Source: Desulfobacteraceae bacterium (GTDB lineage: Bacteria > Desulfobacterota > DSM-4660 > Desulfatiglandales > B25-G16). From it: a stretch of 33,264 nt of DNA. The notes under the pieces were generated by a model. It was not told the origin of the DNA. It did no database searches and saw only the letters and a list, made by a program, of their open reading frames with translations. The DNA lies in contig JAUWZV010000011.1 of the NCBI GenBank assembly GCA_030615105.1, forward strand, positions 1 through 33,264. Reading direction: 5' to 3'. Of the stretch, positions 25,808 through 28,711 are shown one piece after another (position 1 is the stretch's first letter; every line of letters starts with the position of its first letter). The position numbers were made by a program, and so were the translations under genes.

Positions 25808-26364
25808 TAACTTGATTGCTTAGGAATTTCCTTTTTTAGACAGGATAGACAGGATGTTCAGGCCTTCGACAGGCTCAGGCCCCGAGCTTGTCGAGGGGAT
25901 ATAAAGAAAATAAGAAAATCATGCCTGTCGAGAGCCTCCAGGTCGAGCGATTAATCTTGTTAATCCTGTCGAAAAAGTTCCGCCGCAGGCGGCTAAGTTC
26001 ATTGTATAGAAATTTCCTTTTTAAGTCCTTGTAGGGGCGACATTTATCCGCCAAAGGGCTATGGCGGATTAATGACGCCCGTCATTGCGGGTTCGATAAA
26101 TCGAACCCCTACAGGTCCGCACCAAAGGTGCGGTATGTTCAAACTCCCCGTAGATTATAACGTTACCTTAGTATGTCCTCCCCCTTGTCGCAGATCCCGG
26201 TCTCATAGGGAGCGGGGATGGGGGAGGATTCACCCGCCAAAGGCGGGTAAAGGTGGGGGTGATCATGGTTTATCTTTCCCCCTCCCCTCAGTCCCCTCCC
26301 ACAAGTGGAGGGGAAATCATATCTGATGTCAGATAGTCTGCTTGCTGGAGGGTAGTTCATTCCC
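25808..26364. repeat. 557-bp mosaic of dispersed palindromic repeats
   Basis: No gene is visible in this gap between cheD and cheC. It holds, in order: GACAGGATAGACAGGAT with its partner TTGTTAATCCTGTCGA (to about 25972); CCTTCGACAGGCTCAGG with GAGCTTGTCGAGG (about 25861-25898); TTGTAGGGGCGACATTTATC with AATCGAACCCCTACA (26030-26113); CCGCACCAAAGGTGCGG (26117-26133); and a CTCCCCC/GGGGGAG family (about 26177-26310). Several different families lie side by side, suggesting serial insertion. Confidence 0.6.
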
Positions 26365-26955: not shown

Positions 26956-27047
26956 TGCAACCGCCGATTACGCAGAATTGTGACCGCCGAGGTCGCCGAA
27001 AGTTTACTCTGCATTATCTGCTCTCCTCTCCGATCTCGGCGGTTGCA
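26956..27047. repeat. inverted repeat spanning the cheA stop codon
   Basis: TGCAACCGCCGA (26956-26967) and TCGGCGGTTGCA (27036-27047) are perfect 12-bp arms. Related units (ACGCAGAATTGTGACCGCCG and ATTCTGCGTCCTTTGCGG) lie at both sides. The cheA stop (27014-27016) is inside, so the last 11 or so CheA residues are encoded by the element and further repeat units cover another 6-8 residues. Confidence 0.65.
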
Positions 27048-28711
27048 TTCTGCGTCCTTTGCGGTTGCACTCTCTTCGACAATATTAAGTTACCTATGTC
27101 CAAAATTAACACCACCTCACCTGAACCGATTATGGTAAAGCCGGCAAAGTATCGATTCTCTCTTATCAGCCTATTCAGGGGTTTAAGAACTATCTCCTGT
27201 GTCGTCATGAGGGCATCAACCGCCAAACCGAGTTTTTCTTCCTCTTTCCTGACAATTACTATCTGCTGTCTATCAAAAGCTAAAGACGGTGTGCCAACCC
27301 CGTCAGAAGTCCGCACCGAAGGTCCGGTAGTCACCCCAAGCGACTTACTTCTAACGGGGCCAAACAGCACATTTAATCTTGTTATAGGAATATTCTCTTC
27401 ATTTAAAACGATGGCTTCGTAATTCAGCATTCCTTTTATGTCTTCTTTACTTACACTAACCAATCTCTCTATGTTTGCTAAGGGAATGGCATAAGTCCTG
27501 CCGCAGACCTCAACGAACAGAGTCTTGATGATGGCGAGGGTGAGAGGTATCTTTATTACAAATTTCGTCCCCTTTCCTATCTCAGATTCTACTTGGATAG
27601 AGCCTCCCAGGGATTCTATCTTTTCTTTAACTATATTTAAGCCAAAACCCCTCCCGGAGATCTCAGTAACCTCTTTAGTGGTGCTCACACCAGAAAAGAC
27701 TGAATCGATTACTTCTTCCTTAGTTGCTTCCGGTGATAGAATTCCTCGTTTTAGAGCCGATTCTTTTATCTCTTCAATATCCAGACCAGCTCCATCATCA
27801 AAGACTTCAATGACGGCAAAATTTTTGGTTCTTGTGGCAGTTAACTTTATGGTCCCTTGAGGAGGCTTATCGGATTTGTTCCTTTCCTCAGGAGTCTCAA
27901 TACCATGGTCAACAGCATTTCTTAAAAGATGTACCAAAGATTCTCCGATTTCGTCTACCACACTCCTATCCAATTCTATATCACCGCCTTGTATCTGGAG
28001 GCTTACCTCCTTTTTCTGAAGTTTGGCTAAGTCTCTAACCATCCGGGGGAACCTATTAAATACAAAGCCCATCGGCACCATTCTTGCCTGCATAACATTG
28101 TACTGCACATCTGCAATCAATCTACCCAGGTTATCCACAGCAGCAGATAGTTCAGCGTTCTGGAGGGTCTCCTTAATTCTATCGAGCCTCATGTTGGTGA
28201 TTAATAGTTCTTCTGCTAAGTTCATAAGCAAATCGAGTCTTTCAACCTTGACTTCGATGCTTGTAATCTTCTCCACTGCGGCAGATTCGTCCGTGATTGG
28301 TGATTCGCGACTTGCGACTTGCGGCTCGTCGCCCGTGAATTCTGTAAGATTTTTTAACCTCTCCACCAGCATTCTAGTGTCAAGCTCTTCCTCGCCTCTG
28401 GAGATCTCTTTTAAGCTTGATTCCAAATGATCAAAAGATTGAAACAAGATATCAACGCACTTTTCTATCTCTATCTTCTTGTTTCTTATCGCATCTAATA
28501 CATCTTCTATCGCATGACACAACTGAGCTGTTTTATCGTAATTCATGGTAGCGGCCATGCTCTTTAACGTGTGCGCCTCGCGAAACATATCACTCACCAG
28601 TTCTAACTCATCGGGGGACTTCTCCAGCTTAAGCAGGAAATTATTCATCGCTTCCACGTGTTCTTTTGCTTCACTTAAGAAGGCGTCTTTGTATTTTTCG
28701 AGATCTTCCAC
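27014..28711 (-). CDS. cheA: chemotaxis histidine kinase CheA
   Basis: 565 residues. P1 (1-105) has H47 in REAHTLKSMAATM. A short linker (122-150) replaces the P2 domain. P3 dimerisation helices lie at about 150-210, the P4 ATPase has N box HLLRNAVDHGIE (261-272), DDGAGL (305-310) and GRGFGLNIV (353-361), and P5 (about 390-548) is CheW-like. P5 contains a Gly/Ser/Thr-rich insertion at 451-475, whose DNA is a palindromic repeat; a second repeat (TTGCGACTTGCGGC) encodes part of the linker, and a third the C-terminal tail. The start GTG 28711 has AAAGGAG rather far upstream. Kinase residues are intact, so it should be active. Confidence 0.95.
   Translation of the reverse strand: MEDLEKYKDAFLSEAKEHVEAMNNFLLKLEKSPDELELVSDMFREAHTLKSMAATMNYDKTAQLCHAIEDVLDAIRNKKIEIEKCVDILFQSFDHLESSLKEISRGEEELDTRMLVERLKNLTEFTGDEPQVASRESPITDESAAVEKITSIEVKVERLDLLMNLAEELLITNMRLDRIKETLQNAELSAAVDNLGRLIADVQYNVMQARMVPMGFVFNRFPRMVRDLAKLQKKEVSLQIQGGDIELDRSVVDEIGESLVHLLRNAVDHGIETPEERNKSDKPPQGTIKLTATRTKNFAVIEVFDDGAGLDIEEIKESALKRGILSPEATKEEVIDSVFSGVSTTKEVTEISGRGFGLNIVKEKIESLGGSIQVESEIGKGTKFVIKIPLTLAIIKTLFVEVCGRTYAIPLANIERLVSVSKEDIKGMLNYEAIVLNEENIPITRLNVLFGPVRSKSLGVTTGPSVRTSDGVGTPSLAFDRQQIVIVRKEEEKLGLAVDALMTTQEIVLKPLNRLIRENRYFAGFTIIGSGEVVLILDIGNLILSKRVQPQRTQNATAEIGEESR
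27298..27359. repeat. palindromic element inside the cheA P5 coding region
   Basis: CCCCGTCAGAAGT (27298-27310) and ACTTCTAACGGGG (27347-27359) are inverted with one mismatch. The core CCGCACCGAAGGTCCGG (27311-27327) matches intergenic CCGCACCAAAGGTGCGG (26117-26133) at 15 of 17 bases. The whole unit is translated without a stop or frameshift. Confidence 0.7.

Follow-up and report, generated by a model that had tools for sequence, protein, structure and literature searches.

A 62-bp palindrome in frame within cheA of a Desulfobacteraceae bacterium is very probably a MITE-like transposon of a cross-phylum family

The window analyzed here, a 33,264-nucleotide stretch of DNA from a Desulfobacteraceae bacterium, carries a cheA gene with cheC-like, cheB, cheY, and cheW genes as its neighbors (products read from the list of open reading frames). 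Pfam and NCBIfam assign to its protein HPt, dimerization, HATPase, and CheW-like P5 domains, the last spanning residues 398 to 543, and it is in P5 that a 62-bp palindromic stretch falls, across which the cheA frame stays open (Table 1). Minus this insert, CheA would by inspection read ...ITRLNVLFGTPSLAFDRQQIVIV.... A nested inverted repeat (GCAACCGCCGA...CGCAGA, positions 26956 to 27069) lies at the 3' end of the gene, and the last codons (approximately residues 547 to 565) run into it, so that the C-terminal tail of CheA also appears to be repeat derived.

The 62 bp read CCCCGTCAGAAGT CCGCACCGAAGGTCCGG T AGTCACCCCAAGCGACT T ACTTCTAACGGGG, that is, a 13-bp arm, a 17-nt hairpin, T, another 17-nt hairpin, T, and a 13-bp arm. 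The termini form 13-bp inverted repeats, CCCCGTYAGAAGT, that enclose two 7-bp hairpins, and the 13-nt ends pair with each other, one of the pairs being G.U on the sense strand. As sense RNA (70 nt, short flanks included), the element folds into a three-way junction of -39.4 kcal/mol (z = -5.8), with none of 200 shuffled sequences as stable, and the + strand of the DNA takes the same fold (z = -3.5). A preliminary description of this DNA had reported a 62-bp inverted repeat in the cheA reading frame, and sequence, frame, and fold all bear it out. What that description missed is an exact direct repeat of 4 bp, CCAA, on the two sides of the element; the insertion therefore amounts to 62 + 4 = 66 bp, or 22 codons. 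Neither Rfam at 27298 to 27359 nor NCBIfam in the insert region gives a match up to an E value of 10, and a DNA similarity search with the 62 bp returned no close copy of the interior elsewhere in the same genome, only weak matches to an intergenic hairpin.

Table 1. Positions of the cheA element, its parts, its host gene, and a nearby repeat within the window
Feature	Position	Strand	Remarks
Terminal hairpin of the separate intergenic repeat	26116..26133	+	Not part of the cheA element
cheA host ORF	27014..28711	-	565 aa; basis: ORF list, Pfam, NCBIfam
Target-site duplication, copy 1 (CCAA)	27294..27297	none	Fits YNNR
Whole 62-bp element	27298-27359	-	Orientation of covariance model R1; codes CheA residues 451-472, GPVRSKSLGVTTGPSVRTSDGV
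Terminal inverted repeat CCCCGTCAGAAGT	27298..27310	+	Outer stem, one side
Inner hairpin H2, CCGCACC-GAA-GGTCCGG	27311..27327	+	7-bp stem with one C.C mismatch, 3-nt loop
Single junction base between hairpins	27328	none	Unpaired; sense A here, G in most relatives
Inner hairpin H1, AGTCACC-CCA-AGCGACT	27329..27345	+	7-bp stem, 3-nt loop
Single junction base	27346	none	Unpaired; sense A, invariant in the 62-bp class
Terminal inverted repeat CCCCGTTAGAAGT	27347..27359	-	Outer stem, other side
Target-site duplication, copy 2 (CCAA)	27360..27363	none	Exact match to copy 1

Protein comparisons agree with the earlier proposal that the loop was inserted rather than inherited. It is absent from 28 CheA homologues of the same order (one more aligns only partly there), and, in alignment to solved structures of Thermotoga CheA (2ch4 among them), the two conserved P5 blocks break exactly at the insert, with 33 residues here versus 12. 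An AlphaFold model of P4-P5 (17 sequences) has a good core and a mean pLDDT of 79.7; the pLDDT drops below 50 at model residues 238 to 264, corresponding to CheA 452 to 478, which take in nearly all of the insert and lie between two strands. No cheA orthologue was found in the same-genus genome, and hence an insert-free allele of the same gene is not at hand. That the loop is an ancestral part of CheA whose DNA is palindromic by chance we regard as extremely improbable: the lengths of P5 loops do vary among homologues, but chance sequences of this composition do not fold as well, the duplication is exact, a covariance model of related elements recovers this copy with an E value of 6.6e-16 (see below), and neither the homologues nor the Thermotoga structure keeps the sequence.

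Relatives within the same genome are recognized by their ends and not by their middle, as CCCCGTYAGAAGT-like inverted pairs that stand 47 to 101 bp apart, many with exact 4-bp duplications (commonly TTTA/TAAA, also CTCA and CCAA). The gapped pattern CCCYGTYARA...TYTRACRGGG yields 34 longer and 7 shorter pairs in this genome, versus none for the reversed control. Other genes hold the same kind of element in frame. The second clear case in this genome is a 47-bp element with a TTTA duplication in a gene for a B12-binding radical SAM protein, to which it adds NPVRKPPKGSRIFSNGV between KKISLDI and KVILGGPH; homologues from this and related genomes are without it. Less certain are a 77-bp element in an LptA-like protein and a 101-bp element in an unassigned one.

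Two further groups of elements accompany these. One is a separate 100-bp class (L098, L117, and L119; C41, C145:2649, and C160 of this genome), in which CTCG/CGAG flanks lengthen the inverted repeat and there is no direct duplication. The other is a 62-bp element with the same termini nested in an older element (L263 1501-1562, which is C164:2098-2159 of this genome; also L261 and L262). This 62-bp element is conserved nearly base for base in the same-genus and one same-family genome, upstream of a pseudouridine-synthase-like gene, and is possibly an ancestral or functional copy.

Beyond this genome, the pattern CCCCGTTAGAN{20,50}TCTAACGGGG, run against 84,980 species genomes, returned at least 116 stretches, the hosts among the matches listed being Patescibacteria, Omnitrophota, Planctomycetota, Cloacimonadota, Nitrospirota, Nitrospinota, Bacteroidota, Elusimicrobiota, Riflebacteria, WOR-3/Stahlbacteria, and Deltaproteobacteria/Desulfobacterales. 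Exact 4-bp duplications flank 82 of 141 elements (the matches listed together with a few viral contigs), and a target rule of YNNR fits 81 of the 82 exact duplications among the matches listed, as it does the CCAA of cheA. The 25 genomes reached from the matches listed hold 395 copies (control, 0), with up to 71 in the richest of them, a 1.4-Mb Omnitrophota MAG. Common to the family are CCCCGTTAGA terminal inverted repeats, a 4-bp YNNR target duplication, a variable folded interior, and a length mostly of 32 to 100 bp. With 13-bp arms, a target duplication of fixed length, dispersed copies, and, at 62 bp, no room for a gene inside, the cheA element has the makings of a miniature inverted-repeat transposable element (MITE). 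It is, with high probability, a MITE-like nonautonomous transposon with CCCCGTTAGA termini, one member of this cross-phylum family, that inserted at CCAA in cheA and would be read through as a 22-residue unstructured loop.

Elements of 62 and 65 bp share one architecture in unrelated sequences: a 13-bp stem, A, a hairpin starting with AG, R, and a hairpin starting with CC or GC. Over eight 62-mers, 94.0% of the cells pair and 36 cells are changed on both sides, with a covariation score of 0.468 versus 0.201 when shuffled (0 of 500 as high) and at most 0.135 when slid. The cheA copy forms 13 of the 14 inner pairs of the class and belongs to it. A covariance model (R1) of six 62-mers from Patescibacteria, Omnitrophota, Phycisphaerae, and one unclassified MAG, none of them from this genome, finds the cheA copy, itself not in the model, at 61.4 bits, the E value quoted above being rough because of a short calibration. 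This copy is the sole strong match in its genome (the next scores 32 bits) and may thus have been acquired from elsewhere or be the only one of its type left in this genome. As the shape is conserved but the sequence is not, mobility may depend on the folded strand.

The preliminary description placed the core of the family elsewhere, taking CCGCACC/GGTGCGG as its unit and the intergenic stretch at 26117 to 26133 as a second copy. The similarity between the two stretches is real (90% over 21 nt, 26115 to 26135), but the intergenic one is part of another repeat and has no CCCCGTYAGA arms; it is not a copy of the cheA element, and the CCGCACC/GGTGCGG unit, which belongs to that separate repeat, does not define the family, as the CCCCGTYAGA termini and the YNNR duplication do. 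The intergenic repeat (TGTAGGGGC...CCCCTACAGGTCCGCACCGAAGGTGCGATATGTTC) is approximately 110 bp long (approximately 26030 to 26140) and occurs at 15 further places in the genome; its pattern, TGTAGGGGC...CCCCTACAGGTCCGCACC(G/A)AAGGTGCGATATGTTC, resembles GTAG-tagged REP-like repeats.

What the two repeats have alike is a single hairpin, H2 of the cheA element being similar to the terminal hairpin of the intergenic one. This raises a composite origin, in which H2 of an old terminus-bearing element was overwritten by, or borrowed from, the repeat at 26116 to 26133 through local recombination or template switching. H2 and the repeat, which occurs at 16 places (26116 among them), do share an uninterrupted run of 15 identical bases (GTCCGCACCGAAGGT); the position of H2, its base pairs, and the single bases that flank it nevertheless agree with the cross-phylum class, and the CUUCGG-type loops that both have in common make convergence easier. 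We consider such a history possible but rather doubtful. As an account of how the interior arose, it is compatible with insertion of a MITE-like element.

Translation of such an element as a short loop would explain why it is tolerated, and its dimensions fit this. Counted together, element and duplication come to a multiple of three in 58 of the 99 sequence clusters among the matches listed (p = 3e-7), and in 46 of 84 such clusters the length is still frame neutral outside a coding context. Lengths of 3n+2, with which insertion and a 4-bp duplication together keep the frame, predominate: they account for 58 of 74 listed copies from seven genomes, a sample reached via the first, with slight overlap, in which copies within one genome are not independent. 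Where the context is coding (at least 60 open codons on each side), 28 of 31 elements are frame neutral and 24 of 31 are in frame and open throughout.

The ends themselves hold stops. By inspection, the left end has a TAG in one of the three phases (CCC CGT TAG), and the right end has a TAA in one. The two stops share a phase only at a length of 3n+2, and the other two phases are then free of stops at both ends. In the cheA insertion, whose 66 bp are a multiple of three, ribosomes would thus read through. Even noncoding copies of the 3n+2 class have more open frames than their shuffled versions (2.71 versus 2.04 of 6; sd, 0.13), with no excess in other length classes. The excess of open frames and of this length may come from survival in gene-dense genomes and not from selection on the element itself. 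The frame in use reads xPVR...SNG(V/A) in 20 and xPL(E/D)...LTG in 4 of the 24 coding cases; in cheA it reads GPVR...SDGV.

Frame neutrality also bears on whether the insert is removed before it can have any effect, by mRNA splicing or ribosome hopping, as an intron-like or bypassing element would be. The strong RNA hairpins and the compact, conserved fold would suit such a process, which, however, needs no frame neutrality, yet the lengths are strongly 3n+2 and most coding-context elements are in frame and open; stop-free frames exceed those of shuffles even in noncoding copies, and no gene with a broken frame appears in five other cases, drawn from two genomes. Splicing or bypassing is disfavored on these grounds, and we hold it to be very unlikely.

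The five cases just mentioned, from two element-rich genomes, had at first sight the look of out-of-frame insertions, and none is consistent with a frameshifting insertion into one gene. At least three sit at junctions of adjacent genes (L4/L23, L16/L29, and penicillin-binding protein/MurE; residues read by eye). In these gene-junction elements (L343 1863-1915, L343 5148-5194, and L348 1484-1553, respectively), the built-in stops fall between the genes.

Searches with protein families place in-frame elements in PheT, Asd, CarB, PolA, LipA, LMW-PTP, and MerA-like proteins, as well as in two DnaE proteins, RACo, EtfB, AIR-synthase-like and aconitase-like proteins, and IF-2, and several of the matches bridge the insert within one domain. 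The PheT B5 domain, for example, takes 86 aa for 67 profile positions, the insert accounting for 19; in IF-2, TIGR00487 spans the insert, and the start of the Pfam IF-2 domain falls just within it.

At least nine elements lie in prepilin leaders, directly before G/FTLxE (L159 2236-2288, L169 5845-5909 and 6383-6447, L178 3651-3715, L190 1581-1645, L204 5799-5848, L217 6092-6144, and L245 6776-6828 and 7892-7944). The resulting type IV prepilin leaders read, for instance, MKKSFTPLE...SLTG/FTLIELL, the TTTA target coding for F-T of the motif. Prepilin peptidase would cut these inserts away.

Because the same kind of peptide occurs in unrelated enzymes, a role specific to CheA, though possible, is not needed. 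Such a role would mean domestication at the protein level, with the peptide or the hairpin kept for CheA function, e.g., by modulating the contact of P5 with CheW and receptors or by ribosome pausing. Domestication would accord with the role of P5 as coupling domain, with the high stability of the mRNA hairpin, and with the hydrophilic, turn-rich peptide that the frame most used across the family gives; the loop is nonetheless predicted to be disordered, and it sits at a hypervariable position where some homologues have long inserts unrelated to it. We judge domestication unlikely and expect a MITE-like insertion to be nearly neutral for CheA.

Several known kinds of small repeat invite comparison. 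Integron attC sites are folded imperfect palindromes with RYYYAAC outermost on the 5' side, GTTRRRY cores, and no known target-site duplication. The cheA element is likewise a folded imperfect palindrome with GTTRRRY-like letters, but its GTTAGA and TCTAAC face inward within CCCC/GGGG ends and the CCAA duplication stands outside, so it is not an attC site. REPs are extragenic, of 20 to 40 bp, tagged with GTAG or CGTC at one end, and mobilized by RAYTs (PMC3733652). REP/RAYT palindromes and the present family are both small and present in many copies; the CCCCGTYAGA termini, the target duplication, and the intragenic position set the cheA element apart, and it is the intergenic TGTAGGGGC repeat (approximately 26030 to 26140) that comes closer to the REP kind.

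Terminal inverted repeats, target-site duplication, lack of coding capacity, and high copy number unite the family with bacterial MITEs (RUP, ERIC, Correia/NEMIS, and QMITE; PMC10969869). In contrast to typical MITEs, its members are much shorter, the interior of the 62/65-bp class is conserved as a three-way-junction fold and not as sequence, the length and stop phasing fit read-through, and no partner insertion sequence was found.

Rickettsia palindromic elements (RPEs), of approximately 150 bp and in frame in many genes, have been described for Rickettsia (Ogata et al. 2000 and 2002, as cited in PMC10969869), and the same review suggests that a similar process could exist outside Rickettsia. 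The likeness to RPEs drawn in the preliminary description stands in part: both are short, dispersed palindromes that lie in frame in unrelated protein genes and add a short peptide. The present elements, however, are mostly 32 to 100 bp (62 bp in cheA), have CCCCGTTAGA termini and a YNNR duplication, and span many phyla, and by its size, its ends, and the lack of an NCBIfam match the cheA element is not an RPE.

A survey of open-access literature by sequence strings and by in-frame palindromes in candidate phyla, brought up no description of the family. We lean slightly toward regarding it as an undescribed, translation-tolerant transposon family of at least 10 phyla, with conserved ends and folded shape, in which the 3n+2 size and the stop phasing were selected for frame-silent insertion into genes, among them essential ones.

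Protein-coding palindromes are known mainly as an oddity of Rickettsia. If the present reading is true, defined termini, a target rule, and a fold found in many phyla make translated palindromes testable across bacteria. Selfish DNA in gene-dense genomes could then persist by being translated, and the family would form a natural catalogue of short peptides tolerated within conserved folds. It would also account for odd inserts of 12 to 27 residues (xPVR...SNGV and TPLE...LTG) in candidate-phylum proteins and prepilin leaders, which can mislead annotation and structure prediction, and the mobilizing enzyme would be a findable target.

Mobilization would be in trans: a putative transposase would act on the ends, insert the element at YNNR, and duplicate the target, as presumably happened with CCAA in cheA, and the survivors within genes would be frame-neutral, open copies that persist as short, unstructured loops. 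The analysis turned up no autonomous element that bears these termini, the long terminus pairs being without a recognizable transposase. Where such pairs, 567 to 1743 bp long, had 4-bp flanks that matched, they turned out to consist of two distinct elements lying in pilin genes or in other genes. As for the IS1380 transposase as a candidate partner, it is absent from this genome, and intact copies in relatives have no paired termini. One long pair, L223 1791-3533 of a Syntrophaceae MAG, brackets a 1.7-kb segment with two thioredoxin/peroxiredoxin-like genes; the ends agree almost fully (19/20), and TGAA direct repeats flank them, which gives the segment the look of a composite moved by a pair of elements.
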